From an uncultured beta proteobacterium (lineage in GTDB: Bacteria > Pseudomonadota > Gammaproteobacteria > Burkholderiales > Burkholderiaceae_C): 39,814 nucleotides of DNA. The position numbers and the translations under genes are program-made. This document shows, one piece after another, positions 3,324 through 39,814 of the stretch. Location: contig CAITQH010000099.1 of the NCBI GenBank assembly GCA_903894475.1, positions 1 to 39,814 of the forward strand, in the 5' to 3' direction. Position 1 is the stretch's first letter. Each line of letters starts with the position of its first letter. Below the pieces are notes generated by a model, which was not told where the DNA came from, did not search any database, and saw nothing but the letters and a program-made list of their open reading frames with translations.

Positions 3324-4313
3324 TTAGCCCACCAAATGGGCAACACCCGCTTGCTCGTCTTGCAGTTCCTTGAGTGTCTTGTTGATGCATTCCTGGCTGA
3401 ACGCATCAATCGGCAAGCCCTCGACCACTTTGTACTCACCGTCTGCACATGTCACGGCAAAACCAAACATGGTGTCCTTGGGAATACCATACTGGCCATC
3501 CGACGGAATACCCATGGTCACCCACTTACCGTTGCTGCCCAATGCCCAGTCACGCATATGGTCGATAGCAGCATTCGCAGCAGAAGCGGCTGACGAGACG
3601 CCGCGCGCCGCAATGATGGCGGCGCCGCGCTTGCCAACGGTCGGCAGGAAGGTATTAACGTTCCAGTCATGGTCATTGATCATTTCCTTGACGCTGGCAC
3701 CATTGATGGTGGCAAAGCGGTAGTCAGCGTACATGGTCGGCGAATGGTTGCCCCAAACTGCCATCTTCTCGATGTCCGCCACTGCCTTGCCGGTTTTGGA
3801 GGCCAACTGACTCAGGGCACGGTTGTGGTCCAGGCGAATCATGGCGGTGAAGTTTTTGCGTGGCAGATCAGGCGCACTCTTCATCGCGATATAGGCATTC
3901 GTATTGGCGGGGTTGCCAACCACCAGAACCTTGACGTCGCGACTGGCGACCGCATTCAGTGCCTTGCCCTGCTCCGTGAAAATGGCACCATTGACAGCCA
4001 GCAACTCGGCGCGCTCCATACCCGGTCCCCGGGGCCGCGATCCGATCAGGAGGGCGTAATCGGCGTCTTTGAACGCCGTCATTGGATCCGAATGCGCCTG
4101 CATCCCAACCAGCAAAGGAAACGCACAGTCTTGCAGTTCCATCATGACTCCCTGCAAAGCCGCCTGGGGCTTTTCCAAAGGAACCTCCAGCATTTGAAGA
4201 ATGACGGGTTGATCCTGGCCCAACATCTCGCCAGAGGCGATGCGGAACAGAATTGCGTAACCAATTTGACCTGCTGCGCCGGTAACGGCGACACGGACGG
4301 GCTTTTTGCTCAT
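3324..4313 (-). CDS. mdh: Malate dehydrogenase
   Basis: [45 protein letters not shown]...; NAD-binding TGAAGQIGY, ..[13 protein letters not shown].., [13 protein letters not shown].., WGNHSPTMY. Start taken at the internal ATG at 4313. Confidence 0.96.
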
Positions 4314-4433
4314 GGTGAGACTCCAGAGTTGTTGTGAAACCGGGTTCCGGGGTAGCTCAATCTGGATGCTGAACCCCACAGAATGCGTCGCTAGTTTACT
4401 CTGGAAAACCCTGAGTTGGAAATTCGTCTTATG

Positions 4434-4445
4434 TCTTATATAAGA
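4434..4445. promoter_or_regulatory. Perfect 12-bp palindrome TCTTATATAAGA, candidate operator in the mdh/gntR divergent intergenic region
   Basis: Seen directly: gtcttatgTCTTATATAAGAtaagatg. It lies between divergent mdh and a GntR-family gene. The operator role is inferred. Confidence 0.5.
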
Positions 4446-4455
4446 TAAGATGTGG

Positions 4456-4479
4456 CTCATACGCATCAAGCCGTATGAG
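4456..4479. repeat. 8-bp inverted repeat CTCATACG-N8-CGTATGAG upstream of the gntR start
   Basis: Perfect arms at 4456-4463 and 4472-4479 with spacer catcaagc. Confidence 0.6.
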
Positions 4480-4490
4480 GTCACACACCT

Positions 4491-5282
4491 ATGGTCACAT
4501 CACCACTGCCAACAAGCCAGTCGAGCCCCGCTGCAAACGACAACGGGTCCGCCATGACGCCTTCTTTCAGTCCGCTCTACCAGCAAATCAAAGGCATGAT
4601 TCTCAATAGCCTGCGGCTTGGTGAATGGAAGCCGGGCGAGGCCATTCCCAGTGAAATGGACCTGGCAACACGTTTTCGCGTCAGTCAGGGAACGGTGCGA
4701 AAGGCTATCGACGATTTAGCTGCAGAACATTTGCTGGTGCGCCGGCAGGGTAAAGGGACGTTTGTCGCCACCCATGCAGAGCAGCAAGTGCAGTTTCGTT
4801 TTTTGAAACTGGTACCCAACAACGGCAACCCAGGCAGTGAAGGTCCGGCCCATCGCGATATCGTGCAATGTCGTCGCAGCAGCGCCAGCGCAGATATTGC
4901 CCGTGCACTGGCATTGCGCACAGGTGACGCCGTGCTGCAGACACGCCGTGTCCTCAGTTTCCTTGGCACGCCCGCGATTCTTGAAGACATCTGGCTACCA
5001 GCGGCCCCGTTCAAGGGCCTGACCGCCGAGCGACTGACGAACCACCAGGGTCCAATGTACGCCTTGTTTGAGACTGAATTTAGCGTGCGGATGGTTCGTG
5101 CTGAAGAAAAGATACGCGCTGAACCGGCCACGCCAGGGCACGCCGAACTGCTGAAAATCGCTCAGGGCACGCCCTTGCTCAGTGTCGAGCGCATTGCCTA
5201 CACCTACAAGGATGTGCCAATGGAACTGCGACGCGGCTACTATCGCACCGACACTCACTACTATCACAACCGATTAAGCTGA
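4491..5282 (+). CDS. GntR-family (HutC-like) transcriptional regulator
   Basis: Winged-helix N-terminus ([66 protein letters not shown]) and UTRA-like C-terminus. An alternative start is the ATG at 4554 ([13 protein letters not shown]). Confidence 0.92.
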
Positions 5283-5330
5283 GTGTGCCAAGGGCTTGCG
5301 TGCCTGCCATAGAATTTCCGAGCAGCCAAT

Positions 5331-26992: not shown

Positions 26993-27067
26993 GCCGCCGT
27001 AGTTCAATGGATAGAACGAGCGCCTCCTAAGCGCTAGATACAGGTTCGATTCCTGTCGGTGGTACCA
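26993..27067 (+). tRNA. tRNA-Arg, anticodon CCT
   Basis: Cloverleaf read by eye: acceptor GCCGCCG/CGGTGGT (two G-U), D-stem GTTC/GAAC, anticodon stem AGCGC/GCGCT with loop CTCCTAA, T-arm ACAGG-TTCGATT-CCTGT, encoded ACCA end. Confidence 0.95.
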
Positions 27068-32401: not shown

Positions 32402-33379
32402 ATGGAAATCTTTGACTACGAGAACATTCTTCTGCTGCCGCGCAAATGCCGCGTCGAGAGCCGATCCGAATGCGACGCCAGTGTGGAGCTCGGCGGTCGG
32501 CGTTTTCGCATCCCGGTGGTGCCGGCCAACATGAAGACCGTGGTCAATGAAGAAATCTGCATCTGGCTGGCACAGAACGGCTATTTCTACGTGATGCACC
32601 GCTTTGACCTGGACAACGTGCAGTTCGTGAGGAACATGAAGGCGCTCGGACTGTATGCCTCGATCTCGCTGGGAGTGAAGCAACCCGACTACGACGCCGT
32701 TGAACAGTTGCTGACGCTGGGACTGGTGCCTGAATACGTGACCATCGACATCGCCCATGGCCACTCGGACAGCGTGAAGAACATGATTGGCTACCTGAAA
32801 GAGAAGATGCCTTCAGCCTTCATTATTGCCGGCAACGTAGCAACACCCGAAGCGGTGATCGACCTGGAGAACTGGGGCGCTGACGCCACCAAAGTTGGCA
32901 TCGGCCCAGGCAAGGTCTGCATCACCAAGCTGAAGACCGGTTTTGGCACCGGCGGCTGGCAACTGAGCGCCGTCAAGTGGTGCGCCCGTGTCGCAACCAA
33001 GCCGATCATTGCCGACGGCGGCATTCGCGAGCACGGCGACATCGCCAAGTCAATCCGCTTTGGCGCCACCATGGTGATGATTGGTTCTATGCTGGCGGGC
33101 CACGAGACCAGCCCCGGCCAGACGGTGGAGGTGGACGGCAAACTGTTCAAGGAATACTACGGCTCGGCCAGCGACTTCAACAAGGGCGAATACAAACACG
33201 TTGAAGGCAAACGGATTCTGGAGCCCATCAAGGGCAGCCTGGCCAACACCCTGATCGAAATGGAACAGGACGTGCAGAGTTCCATCAGCTATTCGGGCGG
33301 CAAGAAGTTGATGGACATCCGCAAGGTCAACTACGTCACACTGGGCGGTGACAACGCGGGCGAACACCTGTTGATGTAA
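32402..33379 (+). CDS. guaC: GMP reductase (IMPDH/GMPR family)
   Basis: [120 protein letters not shown]. Confidence 0.93.
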
Positions 33380-33393
33380 CGGGGCCCGGCTGG

Positions 33394-33425
33394 CATGATT
33401 CGGCACGTCATGATGCCCAATCATG
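33394..33425 (+). repeat. Hairpin immediately downstream of guaC
   Basis: CATGATT-c-GGCA-cgtcatga-TGCC-c-AATCATG: 7 bp + 1x1 mismatch + 4 bp. No T-run follows. Confidence 0.6.
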
Positions 33426-33590
33426 GCGGGCGACTTGGGGTTCGCATTTTCATTCAGTGGTGGTAGACTGATTTCCGAAGTCAATGCTTGCTGGAGGGCG
33501 AGTCATTGCCTTTAGTCTGAGCTTGATCAGATTGTGTCAGGCCGAAGTACTTGATAAAGGAAAGGAACTGCCCTTAGGGTTGAGACAATC

Positions 33591-33896
33591 ATGAAAAAGC
33601 CTCAAGAAAATGTGCCTGAAAAGCAGATGCGCCGCGCGAGAATAAGTTCCAGGCTTCCAACTACGGTCAATGGAGTCAAGGGCGTCACGCGTGACATCAG
33701 TCGCAGCGGTCTGTATATCGTTCAGAGCAGCAGGCTCGAAATTGGTTCACATATCGATTTTTGGATCAACCTGGATACGCCAGGTGGCAAGTTGAAACTG
33801 TCTTGCGAAGGCAACGTGGTTCGCGTGGAAGAAGTTGATGGAAAATTTGGAATCGGAGTCAAGATCCTCAGCCAAGTTATTGAGGGCAACGAATAG
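33591..33896 (+). CDS. PilZ-domain protein
   Basis: RRARISSRLPTTVNGVKGVTRDISRSGLYIVQSSRLEIGSHIDFWINLDTPGGKLKLSCEGNVVRVEEVDGKFGIGVKIL; PilZ-like [D/N]xSxxG arrangement. Confidence 0.82.
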   Translation: MKKPQENVPEKQMRRARISSRLPTTVNGVKGVTRDISRSGLYIVQSSRLEIGSHIDFWINLDTPGGKLKLSCEGNVVRVEEVDGKFGIGVKILSQVIEGNE

Positions 33897-33991
33897 CTGT
33901 GTGGGCTGAAATCATGTGTGCGAGCACCTGCACCAGATGCACTCAGGCACAAAAGCAGATCAAATTTGCCGAACTGCGCAGCACCGGACAA

Positions 33992-34228
33992 CTACCTTTG
34001 TGGAACCCGATAATGCGCTTCCTCTGTGACCCTGGCGGCATCAGACGCGGCAATTGCCGCTGATTCCGCTGCTATTTGCATCAGCGGCTTGGCGGCTTCC
34101 TTGGCGGCGCGCTGTTGTTGCTCATTCATTAGTCCGTCGCTCGCCTCATATTGTCGTACCAAGTACAACAATGCGGCAATAGACAAAGCCGCGCCCACAG
34201 CCCACGCCAACACCCTGCGCTTTGTCAT
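33992..34228 (-). CDS. Small hypothetical protein with one N-terminal TM/signal segment
   Basis: MTKRRVLAWAVGAALSIAALLYLVRQYEASDGLMNEQQQRAAKEAAKPLMQIAAESAAIAASDAARVTEEAHYRVPQR, 78 aa. Confidence 0.55.
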   Translation of the reverse strand: MTKRRVLAWAVGAALSIAALLYLVRQYEASDGLMNEQQQRAAKEAAKPLMQIAAESAAIAASDAARVTEEAHYRVPQR

Positions 34229-34284
34229 GTTATCCCCCGCTTTGTTGATCCGTTTCCAGTTTACCCCGCATAATCCTCCGCAGT

Positions 34285-34650
34285 ATGCGCATCGACAAAT
34301 GGCTATGGGCCGCACGTTTCTTTAAGACACGTTCATTGGCAACCGATGAGATCAACCGTGGGCGCGTGCAAATGGAGCGGCATGACGTCAAGCCGTCCCG
34401 GGAAATCCGGGTTGGGGATGTGATCACCCTGATGCAGGCCAGGACGGCGCATACCGTTATCGTGAAAGGCCTTAACCAACAGCGTGGACCAGCCTCCGCG
34501 GCACAACATCTCTACGAGGAGACAGCAGAAAGTTTTCAAGCAAGAGCCAACGCTATCGAACTCCATCACTTGAGCCCGGAGCCTGCACTGACCATTGCGC
34601 ATGGCCGACCTACAAAACGGGATCGCCGGAATTTACAACAATTTGGATAA
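34285..34650 (+). CDS. hslR: S4-domain RNA-binding protein (Hsp15/HslR-like)
   Basis: MRIDKWLWAARFFKTRSLATDEINRGRVQMERHDVKPSREIRVGDVITL...RPTKRDRRNLQQF. Confidence 0.92.
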   Translation: MRIDKWLWAARFFKTRSLATDEINRGRVQMERHDVKPSREIRVGDVITLMQARTAHTVIVKGLNQQRGPASAAQHLYEETAESFQARANAIELHHLSPEPALTIAHGRPTKRDRRNLQQFG

Positions 34651-34659
34651 ACCAGACCC

Positions 34660-35271
34660 ATGACCACCTCGAATCGACGATCGAATTTTCACACGTGCTT
34701 TGCCAGGATTGCGCAAGCAGTGCTTTTCGCTGGAGTGATGGCTGCGACGCCCGGTCATGCCGCTGACGGTTCAACGGATTCCGACAAAGGCACTTACGAC
34801 CAGGAGTCAGTCCTCAAGGACGCCGAGCAATTTTTTGGTGCCAGCACCGAGGGACTTGCCAAGATTGTCGAGAAGGCCTTCAAAGAGCATGGTCGACCCA
34901 GCGGCTATATCAAAGGCGAAGAGGCCAGTGGTGCGGTCACTGTAGGCCTGCGCTACGGAAACGGAATGCTCAGCATGAAGACCGGCAAATCCAGAAAAGT
35001 CTATTGGCAAGGCCCTTCCATCGGATTCGACTTTGGTGCCAATGTATCCAAAGTTTTTGTGTTGGTCTACCACCTCCCTTCCAGCGACAAGATATACCAA
35101 CGCTTCCCGGCAGTGGACGGCAGTTTTTATTACGTTGGCGGAGCCGGCATCAACTATCAGCAACGCGATGGCGTCATACTCGCGCCCATTCGGCTTGGCG
35201 TCGGGATGCGGGCCGGTGCGAGCATTGGCTACATGCACTACACCCGAGAGAAGACTTATCTTCCGTTCTAA
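34660..35271 (+). CDS. EipA / DUF1134 family periplasmic protein
   Basis: Signal-like N-terminus. YDQESVLKDAEQFFGASTEGLAKIVEKAFKEHGRPSGYIKGEEASGAVTVGLRYGNGMLSMKTGKSRKVYWQGPSIGFDFGANVSKVFVLVYHL...GVGMRAGASIGYMHYTREKTYLPF. Confidence 0.87.
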   Translation: MTTSNRRSNFHTCFARIAQAVLFAGVMAATPGHAADGSTDSDKGTYDQESVLKDAEQFFGASTEGLAKIVEKAFKEHGRPSGYIKGEEASGAVTVGLRYGNGMLSMKTGKSRKVYWQGPSIGFDFGANVSKVFVLVYHLPSSDKIYQRFPAVDGSFYYVGGAGINYQQRDGVILAPIRLGVGMRAGASIGYMHYTREKTYLPF

Positions 35272-35334
35272 GGTGCTTGGCATGGTGGAGCGGGCAGGCC
35301 ATTTTCATTCGCCTGCGGAATTTGCGCTCACGAA

Positions 35335-35610
35335 TGACGCGCCCCCAAGTAGCAGATTCTTTTTCAATGTAAGCCTGGGACGTGGAAGACGTGGAGTAAT
35401 AGGCCGCAACGCGACCACCCAACAAGTCTTGCAGCGCTGGCGCACCGCCTTTATAAGGAATATGCACCGTGTCAATCTTGGCCATGTCAATCACCGGGTC
35501 GTAAGGTAGCTTCATCAGGTGTGGTGCAATGGCCAAGGGGCCGACCGAGCCAAATAAGATGAGGCGTGCGCCCGTGTCAGCGGCCCCACCAGCAGCAGCC
35601 TAATGGATCG
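35335..35610 (-). pseudogene. Internally deleted remnant of a tripartite tricarboxylate transporter receptor (TctC/Bug family)
   Basis: The frame reads GAADTGARLILFGSVGPLAIAPHLMKLPYDPVIDM then AKIDTVHIPYKGGAPALQDLLGGRVAAYYSTSSTSQ then AYIEKESATWGRVIRER. These TctC-like N-terminal, central and C-terminal blocks are joined without the sequence that normally separates them. Boundaries approximate. Confidence 0.75.
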
Positions 35611-36418
35611 TTTGCAACGGATGAGTAGTCAATCCCGCCCGTTGTAGCCAAGCAAATACCGAGTCTGCTGTAACTGTTTCAATTCGGTCGCCAAAGCGCT
35701 TCTCATTAGGGTGGTCGTCAAACGCCACGTTTGCAGCTGTCATGCGTGCGCCTAGCCGAACTAGAACTCCAAGTTTCAAAACGCCAGCTTGGTAATCGTG
35801 GTTCATGAGCCAAGTCTGAGCTTGGCCCCGGCTGGCCCCTGCACCTGCCATTTCTGGATCCAACGCCATGGCAACCGTTTCAATAGCCCACTGGTTTGAC
35901 TGTTGGTATTTCAAGCCCCAAACGTAGCTAACCATGCTGTAAGGTTTGACGTGCATTTGCACCGCGCGACGATCATCCAAGAGGACTGACTGTAACTTGC
36001 GCTGTACATCGGGTGTGGGCATCATCCAGGCCGCTTCAAATCGCCATAGATCATCCATGAAGAATTCACCTAGCCCTTGACGGTAGATCGCCGCATCGGC
36101 GCTTCCACATTGATTGAGCTTATGCAAGATGCGCCAGGCATGGCCACCCTGTCCATCGGGTTGTTGGTATGCAAATCCCAAGTGAGAATAGTGCAAACCG
36201 TATTTCCTCAAATCTTGCCCAGCCCGGGCCAAAACCACCACCTGTGCGCCACTTGCCTCCAGGACGTTGACAGCATGCTGTGCCAACTCAAGCGCACGCA
36301 ATACGGTCTCGGTCTTGGGTGGTTGTGGTTCGGCGCAAGTTCGTCCGGCATGCGCCACTTGGGCAAGCAGCATGTAGCCGCAAACCGATGCAGCGAACTG
36401 GCGAGAGATCATATTCAC
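35600..36418 (-). CDS. DUF2145 family protein
   Basis: Signal-like MNMISRQFAASVCGYMLLAQVAHAGRTCAEPQPPKTETVLRALELAQHAVNVLEASGAQVVVLARAGQDLRKYGLHYSHLGFAYQ...AWRILHKLNQCGSADAAIYRQGLGEFFMDDLW. Family call from memory. Confidence 0.78.
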   Translation of the reverse strand: MNMISRQFAASVCGYMLLAQVAHAGRTCAEPQPPKTETVLRALELAQHAVNVLEASGAQVVVLARAGQDLRKYGLHYSHLGFAYQQPDGQGGHAWRILHKLNQCGSADAAIYRQGLGEFFMDDLWRFEAAWMMPTPDVQRKLQSVLLDDRRAVQMHVKPYSMVSYVWGLKYQQSNQWAIETVAMALDPEMAGAGASRGQAQTWLMNHDYQAGVLKLGVLVRLGARMTAANVAFDDHPNEKRFGDRIETVTADSVFAWLQRAGLTTHPLQTIH

Positions 36419-36876
36419 TGCGTGACGCGTTCGCTATGTAGTAGCGATTGTCCAACAGCATTGGGAATGAAGGCAATCACTTCCCCTGCCACCGACAAAA
36501 CCGTGCCCGCGCCGACAATGCTTACTGTCACCACCGCGCCTGTTACCACGGAAGCGGCTGCGGATGCCTTGCCGACAAGCTGCACGCTGACACGCGCGCC
36601 ATCCGAGGCACGCTCCAACAAATAGACAGCCCCCTTGGCAGACAATTCCACCGCCTTGACCGTTAAGACCGAGCCCGCTGTCGACAGGATGGCCGGTGTA
36701 GCAACCATGGCGCCAGCCACTGCACTGGTCCCCACCACGACGGATGCAAGAGGCATTGTCGATACGGCACTTGAAGTCGTGGAGGCATCATTGGCAGCTT
36801 GAACATGAAGAGATGCAGTACCCCCCAGCGACAACACACCAACAACAATCAGCGCAGCAGCAAACCCAGATTTCAT
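36415..36876 (-). CDS. Hypothetical exported/membrane protein, translationally coupled to the DUF2145 gene
   Basis: MKSGFAAALIVVGVLSLGGTASLHVQAANDASTTSSAVSTMPLASVVVGTSAVAGAMVATPAILSTAGSVLTVKAVELSAKGAVYLLERASDGARVSVQLVG... Its stop overlaps the next start (ATGA-type). Confidence 0.65.
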   Translation of the reverse strand: MKSGFAAALIVVGVLSLGGTASLHVQAANDASTTSSAVSTMPLASVVVGTSAVAGAMVATPAILSTAGSVLTVKAVELSAKGAVYLLERASDGARVSVQLVGKASAAASVVTGAVVTVSIVGAGTVLSVAGEVIAFIPNAVGQSLLHSERVTQ

Positions 36877-36979
36877 CAAATTAATCCTGTTCAGATTGGA
36901 CATTCGGGCCAAACGCAGAGCTGTGCGCTCTCATCGCCGCCTCCCCGCTGGGCTCATCCTGCAAAGACTTGACAGCTTA

Positions 36980-37306
36980 CTACTTCTTCTTTTTCTCCGC
37001 CGGCTTAACCTCAGCAGCAGCGCGCGGTTTGGCCGCTTTCTTTGCCTTGGGGGCTTCCTCTTTTGGTTTTGTCAGGCGCTCCGCCTTCATTACGGCGAGT
37101 TCCGCTGTCAGTTTCTCCGCAGCATCAATAGCCTGTAGGCGGACCTGTGATTCCTTAACCTTTGACTTCAACTCCCTGACGCCGATATCATGAGCGATTC
37201 TTGTTGCGTCAAGCCCTTTGTCTCCAAGAAGCGTCTGGCGTTTCTGCAACTTCGCCTCCCATTCGACCAACTGCTTCTGCCGTGTTTCTCTGCTGAGGGA
37301 CGTCAT
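36980..37306 (-). CDS. Small coiled-coil-like protein with a Lys/Ala/Pro-rich basic C-terminal tail
   Basis: MTSLSRETRQKQLVEWEAKLQKRQTLLGDKGLDATRIAHDIGVRELKSKVKESQVRLQAIDAAEKLTAELAVMKAERLTKPKEEAPKAKKAAKPRAAAEVKPAEKKKK; AGGAGA-like SD (ggagaaatct) before the ATG. Confidence 0.6.
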   Translation of the reverse strand: MTSLSRETRQKQLVEWEAKLQKRQTLLGDKGLDATRIAHDIGVRELKSKVKESQVRLQAIDAAEKLTAELAVMKAERLTKPKEEAPKAKKAAKPRAAAEVKPAEKKKK

Positions 37307-37329
37307 AGATTTCTCCTTTGTTTTTCATT

Positions 37330-37482
37330 GTATAACCCGCTTGATCCCAGCGCTTGTCTCCAGTTGATGGTTACTTCCATCGCACGAAGGCTTTCCAGCC
37401 TTCAGTCTATAGCTCACCGCCTCCATCTCTTGAATTTCAACGTGTATTTGCTACGTGCCTGTCCGTCTTTCCTCTTGCTCAT
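37330..37482 (-). pseudogene. Possible 5' remnant of an IS3-family OrfA (frameshifted)
   Basis: Minus strand: MSKRKDGQARSKYTLKFK, then a frameshift into MEAVSYRLKAG. This resembles the OrfA N-terminus (MSKxK..YTxEFKxEAVxLVKxG). No further transposase follows. Confidence 0.4.
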
Positions 37483-37908
37483 TTCGTAACCTCCAGTGTC
37501 TGAAATTTTCCATCAGCTATGCAGTACGTTTTCCGGGGGCAAGCTCAATCCGTCCCATTCGATCAGCAACTGTCCCATCAGAGTGGTCGACTACTACGTG
37601 ATGCCCGCGCTTGATCTTGCGGGGCCGGCACTGAGCATCTTCAGCCGGCGTGAAAGCAGTCTGGATTGCTTTCGCTTTGACTCTCTGGACTTCCTTTATG
37701 GAATGACCGAGCGCATGCCGGTGATGCGCCGGGGTCATGGATTACCGCCCCTCTTTTTGCGGCCAAACCTAAAGCCCCTTGCGCTCAATTGAACAGCCCT
37801 TACCAAGGAAACCGCTCCGCATTGGAACCCCCTTTGATTTCAAATTGACCCACGCGCGAGGCCCCTGGTCAAAGCTTCTTTGCTTATCGCGTGGCCACTT
37901 AACAGCCC

Positions 37909-38387
37909 GGCGGGCGCTTCGCTTTGTGCCCGCCGAATACCGCTCGCGGGGCGCTCGCTTTGTTAACAAGTTTGTGTGCCCGTGCTCCGGGTTTTGCCGC
38001 GGTAAAGGCGCGAGCCCCGTGCGATGCCACGCTGCCCGCGCGTTCAGAACTTGTTTTGAGAGCACGCTCAGGCTTGGCCCTTGGCTAGGGCTGGACCCCT
38101 TTTGTTTTCAAAGAGGGCTGCCGGCGTCTGGTGCTGGCGGGCTTCAGAACTTGTTCTGAGGGTACGTGCTGGGCTGCTGCCAAAATGGCGCGCAAATGCG
38201 CCCCGGCGCGCGTCTACCAAGGGTGCCGGGGTCAGGGGCCAGGCTCGCTGCCGCTCGCCACTGCGTCCGGGCTGCGCTTGTCCGGACGCAGGGTACCGCG
38301 GGCTTGCGCCCGCCAATTTTGGGGGCCACGAGTCCGGGTTTTACCCCCGTGAAACGCCGTGCCCCGTGGCGATGCCACGCTGCCCGC
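37909..38387. repeat. Hairpin-rich repeat region without convincing coding content
   Basis: Hairpins/palindromes: GGCGGGC-N12-GCCCGCC (37909-37934); TCAGAACTTGTTCTGA (38144-38159) with a 1-mismatch copy at 38044-38059; CTGCGTCCGG-N11-CCGGACGCAG (38261-38291); GCGGGC-ttgc-GCCCGC (38298-38313); CGTGGC-gat-GCCACG (38365-38379). A ~54-bp imperfect direct repeat lies at 37986-38039 and 38333-38387. Confidence 0.7.
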
Positions 38388-38396
38388 CTACCGTTC

Positions 38397-38612
38397 TCAT
38401 GCCGGCTGTTTGGGCTGTGGAAACCCTGTTGCTATACAACGTATCACAGGACAAATTGACGAGGACTTAAGGGGGTAGTGCCGTAGTAGCTGACGTGCTG
38501 TCTTGCGCACGTCGTCAGCGATGCCTGGCGTGTCGCCTGGCATCGTTAGCGTCTCAAGGAAACGTCTTGTTTTCAGTAAAGCCCGGGTGCGCTGGTGTGG
38601 TTCTGTCATCAT
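38397..38612 (-). CDS. BPSL0761-family-like small protein (71 aa, possibly with an altered C-terminus), nested in frame at the 3' end of the integrase ORF
   Basis: MMTEPHQRTRALLKTRRFLETLTMPGDTPGIADDVRKTARQLLRHYP; own SD-like sequence aaaaGGAGaacaaATG. Family assignment from memory. Confidence 0.5.
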   Translation of the reverse strand: MMTEPHQRTRALLKTRRFLETLTMPGDTPGIADDVRKTARQLLRHYPLKSSSICPVIRCIATGFPQPKQPA

Positions 38613-39587
38613 TTGTTCTCCTTTTGCCTGAACGCTTACCCGGCGCTCGCAAACCTCGACTGCAATGCCTTGTAAGCCGACTTCATCCAAATAGACGGAC
38701 TGCTCAATTCCAGGGGTATCCCAGGCGTCTCGGTAGTTGTACGGCCCCCATCCTTCCTCAAACCTCTTCTTTGTAGCGAAGATGTACTTACATGTCGCAG
38801 GCGATGCGTCCACAATCGCACGAATGCACCGGTGTACCGGTATCGGCAGCACTATCGTGCGCGCGTCTTCGTTCTTTGTCCGCGGTAGTGTTATTTGCGG
38901 CGGTTGGTCACGCAGCCACGATTTCTCTGCGTGAGATATCTCACCCGGCCGGCACCCGGCACTAAAAAGTGTCATGAAAAAAGTGTAGGCTTTCAGGTCG
39001 CTGTCGATTGCCGGGCATGAGAAAAATTTGCCGATGACCTGGTCAGACATGCGCTGTGTGCGCCGGTCAGAGACTGGCTTCTTGACAGTCAACGTGACGT
39101 TGTCGATTATTTTCTTTGTCTCGATAGCCCAAGCCAGCATGGCTGATAGCGCGGCGACCTCGAGCCGTATCTGGGCCCCGCTCAGCTTTGCCTTTGGGTC
39201 TTTGCTGCGCACAGGCTTCACGTCTCGGCGCTTCGATATGTAGGCCCGCACATCATCTGCAGTGAGCTCTGTGAGCAGCTTGTCACCGAGCTCTGCGAGC
39301 ACAGGGATGTGCTTCGGTATCTCTGACCTCCTGGTCGAGTCAGCCTTGGCCAGCCATTCCTCTGATTTCAAATATTGCGGCCAAACGTCGGCAATCGTCA
39401 GCCCCTTGGGTGCATCTTCCAGCGCGGTTCTGTCTTGCTTTACCCATGTGCCCTTTCGCATGCGCCCCATGGTCTTATCTGCCCACGTCTGCGCGTCTTT
39501 TTGGTGGTCAAAGGTCTGGGCATCTTTCATGTCGCGGACCCGCGCAAAGCCACGAAAACGACCGCTGGGAAGCATCACGACTGACAT
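38397..39587 (-). CDS. Tyrosine recombinase/phage integrase, C-terminally truncated and read in frame into a BPSL0761-like small protein (probably a non-functional recombinase)
   Basis: Core-binding-like YLKSEEWLAKADSTRRSEIPKHIPVLAELGDKLLTELTADDVRAYISKRR; catalytic Arg box LFSAGCRPGEISHAEK; beta-hairpin Lys PRTKNEDARTIVLP. After WGPYNYRDAWD there is no HxxR, LGH or catalytic Tyr box. Confidence 0.8.
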   Translation of the reverse strand: MSVVMLPSGRFRGFARVRDMKDAQTFDHQKDAQTWADKTMGRMRKGTWVKQDRTALEDAPKGLTIADVWPQYLKSEEWLAKADSTRRSEIPKHIPVLAELGDKLLTELTADDVRAYISKRRDVKPVRSKDPKAKLSGAQIRLEVAALSAMLAWAIETKKIIDNVTLTVKKPVSDRRTQRMSDQVIGKFFSCPAIDSDLKAYTFFMTLFSAGCRPGEISHAEKSWLRDQPPQITLPRTKNEDARTIVLPIPVHRCIRAIVDASPATCKYIFATKKRFEEGWGPYNYRDAWDTPGIEQSVYLDEVGLQGIAVEVCERRVSVQAKGEQMMTEPHQRTRALLKTRRFLETLTMPGDTPGIADDVRKTARQLLRHYPLKSSSICPVIRCIATGFPQPKQPA

Positions 39588-39702
39588 GCTTTTCTCCTTG
39601 TTTGCTCACAAAGCCTGCTCACGGGGCATTTTGTGAGAAAAGTGCAGTTTACGGGAGAAAGGGTATTAATCCGTAACCCTATGATTTAATAAGGGTTTTG
39701 AA

Positions 39703-39747
39703 TGGTGGGAACTGAGAGATTCGAACTCTCGACCTACGGATTAAGAG
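39703..39747 (-). other. 45-bp 3' fragment of tRNA-Lys(CTT) including CCA; probable attachment (att) site
   Basis: Minus strand CTCTTAATCCGTAGGTCGAGAGTTCGAATCTCTCAGTTCCCACCA = anticodon loop to 3' CCA. The expected 5' half (GGGAACT...D-arm) is absent: the upstream sequence is ...ccctgaatttt. An integrase gene is adjacent. Confidence 0.8.
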
Positions 39748-39814
39748 AAAATTCAGGGCCCTTTTTGCAACTTCGTGGCGACGGCGTGGTCAATGAAATC
39801 AAGGACTTACGAGC

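Follow-up and report, generated by a model that had tools for sequence, protein, structure and literature searches.

A tRNA-Lys(CTT) 3′ fragment as the probable attachment junction between tandem integrative elements in a Rhodoferax chromosome

A 45-nucleotide 3′ fragment of tRNA-Lys(CTT) near the right end of contig C99 was identified as an att junction that very likely lies inside a tandem (accreted) array of integrative elements, at a tRNA-Lys(CTT) hotspot of a Rhodoferax chromosome. The window, meaning the whole stretch of DNA analysed (39,814 nucleotides), is the entire contig C99, one of 536 in the assembly, and is mostly ordinary chromosome. In the mechanism proposed, a tyrosine integrase would cut in the anticodon loop (CTCTTAA), and each insertion would rebuild the tRNA at one side and leave a displaced 45-nt 3′ end at the other. 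The displaced end found here would separate two elements. To its right would lie an island that ends in a terminal arm, X, and an excisionase/AlpA-like gene and that probably runs on into contig C483, where HipBA and another tRNA-Lys fragment are found; to its left would be all that survives of a decayed older element, its left arm and a truncated integrase. The array would be inverted relative to guaC, with breakpoints in the integrase gene and in the guaC-tRNA interval, or would appear so through an assembly error. Coordinates of the features are given in Table 1.

Table 1. Features of the right-hand part of the window, with strand and the evidence for each.
Feature	Position	Strand	Evidence
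guaC (GMP reductase), native upstream neighbour of tRNA-Lys(CTT)	32402..33379	+	Pfam IMPDH/GMPR
Host genes PilZ, S4, EipA, DUF2145, ORF108	33380..37358		match parts of the guaC-tRNA-Lys interval of relatives
Intergenic DNA with diverged repeat	37359..38465		79% matches at ends of C506, C481, C174
BPSL0761-family remnant, in-frame fusion to integrase relic	38466..38609	-	NCBIfam NF041728, E 3e-14
Truncated tyrosine integrase relic, N-terminal ~291 aa	38715..39587	-	48% identity over 290 aa to G303 integrase
Spacer, integrase start codon to CCA end; putative left attachment arm of older element	39588..39702	-	direct read
tRNA-Lys(CTT) 3′ 45 nt, anticodon loop to CCA; att junction	39703..39747	-	45/45 identity, 5′ half absent
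X, terminal arm of right-hand island, 67 bp, up to contig end	39748..39814	-	shared with C28, G023

Read directly, the minus strand of the fragment is CTCTTAATCCGTAGGTCGAGAGTTCGAATCTCTCAGTTCCCACCA. It opens with the seven-base anticodon loop CTCTTAA and matches, at all 45 positions, the 3′ end of the intact tRNA-Lys(CTT) gene of many congeners, which excludes chance. The sequence 5′ of the fragment, CCTGAATTTT, is unlike the tRNA 5′ half of relatives, GGGAACTTAGCTCAGCTGGTAGAGCAGCGGA, and no tRNA was called at the fragment by ARAGORN; the sequence-only reading had correctly described a 45-bp 3′ fragment with its 5′ half replaced. In an exact scan of public genomes, the records containing the 45 bases were mostly Rhodoferax and other Comamonadaceae. 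An Rfam scan over the fragment gave a weak chance match and nothing else, and BLAST of the fragment region against plasmids gave no match. That the fragment is a decayed or duplicated tRNA-Lys gene with no link to mobile elements is scarcely credible: the lack of an intact tRNA-Lys(CTT) gene in the host assembly would suit that origin, but the complete identity, the sharp edge at the anticodon loop, the adjacent integrase and the recurrence of such fragments with shared island arms argue against it, and the survey of fragments contradicts it.

In that survey, loci read in Rhodoferax and relatives yielded 17 fragment rows (15 distinct), including the three fragments of the host and one from a viral contig. 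In all 15 distinct fragments, identity to the tRNA breaks off within the anticodon loop CTCTTAA or a few bases 5′ of it. From this divergence the crossover would be placed in the anticodon loop, which bears out the earlier assignment of the site to the att class with crossover there. Each of the three host fragments has its own 3′ flank, and the 5′ arm is common to those on C99 and C28. As several 5′ arms recur among the fragments, several element families use the tRNA-Lys(CTT) site. In relatives with guaC on the same contig the tRNA is intact, and the fragments found elsewhere in relatives carry one of several unrelated 5′ arms; the finding that was to have counted against the original proposal, the same truncated fragment at an unoccupied site, was not made.

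G015 and G035 each pair an intact tRNA-Lys with a second fragment ~1.6-1.7 kb away; the interval is occupied by BrnTA-like genes or an integrase remnant, named from their translations. A different account of such loci, which we consider very improbable, is a cassette array of anticodon-loop att copies, in which small integrase-less modules, each ended by a tRNA-Lys 3′ fragment, would be acquired, lost and inverted through the action in trans of any tRNA-Lys integrase that happens to be present. The modules in that account would be the excisionase-like gene with HipBA here and the BrnTA-like genes in G015. The Rhodoferax tRNA-Lys(CTT) hotspot is documented here with several element families and stacked insertions, which helps in annotating islands and in the search for toxin-antitoxin and restriction cargo.

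The arm X identifies the DNA to the right of the fragment. X and the fragment together are identical at 111 of 112 bp to C28:4286-4397 of the same assembly, and the whole 133-bp query matches contig C157 of G023, another species, at 83%. An excisionase/AlpA-like gene lies ~230-245 bp from the fragment in both C28 and G023 C157, and by sequence X is the conserved terminus of a family of islands in which this gene is also present. Close matches to the excisionase-like gene in the host numbered two, one on C28 and the other right at the start of C483; a scan of viral contigs found no relatives of its protein. On the island side of the C28 copy are an HsdS-like ORF and a GmrSD-type gene, and on its 3′ side is a tRNA-Lys-type terminator. 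The stretch around this second X-fragment copy (C28, L005, 1-9339) also contains a WYL regulator and a restriction-modification control-protein-like HTH gene, and the GmrSD-type gene was matched by PADLOC (PDC-M55C/HEC-05). This cargo looks like a defence island.

The intergenic sequence from X to the excisionase-like gene is complete on C28 alone. The right end of C99 and the left end of C483 hold the two ends of that sequence, 141 bp apart in C28 coordinates. Very probably, then, the window continues to the right into C483 across a join of 141 unassembled bp. C483 contains, in order, the excisionase-like gene, a HAD_SAK phosphatase-like gene and HipBA, followed by a second tRNA-Lys fragment at 3684-3728 and, at 3902-5284, a full-length integrase recognised by Pfam. 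The integrase is on the 5′ side of its fragment and faces away from it; a direct repeat bounding its element was searched for and not found. If the join is right, the fragments of C99 and C483 bound a ~3.9-kb segment that carries the excisionase-like gene and HipBA and no integrase. The matching end of C483, its second fragment and its intact integrase support tandem accretion. The boundary with another island to the right, as first proposed, is thus supported by X at the island ends of C28 and G023 and by the open end, second fragment and intact integrase of C483.

Other genes near these fragments were recorded. HipA and a HipB-like ORF occupy 978-2650 of C483 (L006), between two tRNA-Lys fragments, and a HipA-like gene also stands beside a tRNA-Lys fragment on G015 C299 (L073), after a BrnTA-like pair. 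Similar small unnamed genes are found ~290 bp 3′ of the C483 fragment (L006, 3066-3398) and ~230 bp 3′ of the C28 fragment (L005, 4631-5014), and their similarity suggests a shared left-end gene.

As the sequence-only reading had noted, an integrase ORF (38397-39587, minus strand) lies immediately 3′ of the fragment, with its start 115 bp from the CCA. That reading did not mention that the ORF is a shortened integrase joined to a remnant of another gene, or that the window stops exactly where the contig does. The product (P0001) was assigned to PHROG 1 integrase. About 291 of ~460 aa of the integrase are left: the 48% identity to the 459-aa integrase of G303 is confined to the first 290 residues, the CRPGE and TKNE motifs are kept, and the C-terminal HxxR and Tyr part is absent. 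Of the R-K-HxxR-H/W-Y set of a functional tyrosine recombinase, P0001 has R (CRPGE) and the K-region only; it is homologous to the tyrosine recombinase family and not a complete member. The C-terminal half was searched for in the host assembly and not found, and scans of genome-contig and viral-contig sets found no relatives of the integrase. The NF041728 match spans residues 327-374 of P0001, and a paralogue of this BPSL0761 family (83%) is on C481. Since the relic and the remnant form one 396-aa ORF, automatic gene callers could report them as one intact gene. The full-length G303 homologue follows an intact tRNA-Met after ~100 bp and runs in its direction; the layout of tRNA, spacer and integrase is the same as in the window, but the tRNA of the window is a fragment only. 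The proposal that an older element owned the 38.4-39.6 kb integrase is supported, and that integrase is now a relic; an intact integrase lies on C483, which belongs to the array only by the inferred join. In the spacer between integrase and fragment, the minus strand at window 39660-39680 (ACGGATTAAT) repeats part of the att core (TTAATCCGT) in inverted form; this is possibly an arm or inverted core site, or a chance match.

An attP is commonly laid out with the att core between an excisionase gene on one side and the integrase on the other. The order here, with the att core between an excisionase-like gene and an integrase 115 bp away, conforms to this layout, and X, fragment and integrase could together be the attP of a single element, duplicated in tandem or inserted reversed by another route, with no second element type. 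Insertion in reverse orientation would also explain the strand of the fragment relative to guaC. We regard this as improbable: on C28 a tRNA-Lys-type terminator, and no integrase, comes after the X-fragment end, no integrase follows the fragment in G023 either, and the integrase of the window is a truncated relic abutting host-like DNA. A junction between two elements remains the preferred reading.

The host flank gives the orientation of this junction. From ~27.0 kb the window holds a dihydroorotase-like ORF and other housekeeping genes (from translations), then photolyase, guaC, PilZ, S4, EipA and DUF2145. The gene for tRNA-Arg(CCT) at 26993-27067, considered as an island boundary with a second integrase, was rejected when the adjoining ORF proved dihydroorotase-like. 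ORF108 lies between guaC and tRNA-Lys in G012, as do EipA, S4 and ORF107 in G018. Where guaC and an intact tRNA-Lys were on one contig, the tRNA was on the same strand in 29 of 29 loci (23 distinct), 62-4298 bp downstream. The fragment of the window is on the opposite strand to guaC and 6.3 kb away, and its disagreement with 23 distinct relatives implies an inversion or a mis-assembly. From synteny, the array would be inverted relative to guaC, which could be an assembly error. Two breakpoints, in the guaC-tRNA interval and within the integrase gene, would account for the truncation as well as the orientation. The case for inversion comes from a single contig, in a fragmented assembly of 536 contigs with 7% contamination. 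The earlier idea that a later element pushed the tRNA gene to the right is qualified by the native guaC-tRNA-Lys strand, with which the simple model agrees only given an inversion or a mis-assembly.

The intergenic DNA next to the integrase ORF contains an internal direct repeat (81%), and the diverged repeat at window 37428-37550 recurs at the very ends of its three matching contigs. The right end of C99 may be chimeric, with host chromosome (guaC to ~38.4 kb) misjoined to element DNA close to 37.4-38.7 kb, a stretch rich in repeats; the inverted orientation would then be an artefact and the fragment a real island junction that belongs elsewhere in the array, so that this possibility rivals the inversion step only. 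The conflict with the orientation in relatives, the fragmentation of the assembly and the presence of the 37.4 kb repeat at three other contig ends lend it some weight, but the repeats, at 79% identity, are too diverged to confuse an assembler directly, and the join of integrase and BPSL0761-family sequence is a clean in-frame ORF. We consider a chimera possible and, on balance, unlikely.

Other neighbours of the tRNA were also sought. The K+-channel gene next to the tRNA in G012 and G018 had no close orthologue in the host (best 40%). The PPDK neighbour is at the end of host contig C303, a position consistent with an assembly gap over the array. Intact tRNA-Lys(CTT) was searched for in the host assembly and not found; tRNA-Lys(TTT) is present. 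As tRNA-Trp, tRNA-Ile and tRNA-Ala(TGC) are also absent among the 40 tRNA matches of the assembly, the absence of tRNA-Lys(CTT) says little and is best read as an assembly gap. Of the original proposal, then, the tandem events gained support, and the intact tRNA-Lys gene predicted to the right was not recovered from the assembly.

Islander (PMC4383910) counts 2083 islands whose sites are anticodon-centred, and 125 tandems of two or more; the three-subsite scheme for the sublocation of integrases in tRNA genes is cited there from Williams (2002). The window resembles Islander class A islands in its displaced 3′ tRNA fragment, which is identical to the tRNA 3′ end at 45 of 45 positions as that class demands, in its anticodon-loop crossover and tyrosine integrase, and in the tandem arrays that occasionally occur among them; it differs in having a relic integrase beside the fragment, in the absence of the intact tRNA from the assembly and in a reversed orientation to the host flank. 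In CIME/IME accretion, site-specific integration beside decayed elements that keep their att sites produces composite islands, and a tRNA-Lys composite island in S. agalactiae is described in a review (PMC5704250). The same process may have acted in the window, whereas here the setting is proteobacterial, the cargo is an excisionase-like gene and HipBA, and no transfer genes were seen. CGI48 of Shewanella putrefaciens CN-32 is likewise a composite island with HipAB at a tRNA site, in a tRNA-Trp gene (PMC8978831), and so differs in tRNA and host. No general idea is changed by the finding: anticodon-loop tRNA islands with tandem arrays are a standard class, of which the window is a further case, and what is unusual in it, a reversed array and an integrase both truncated and fused, arose by decay and rearrangement or in the assembly.
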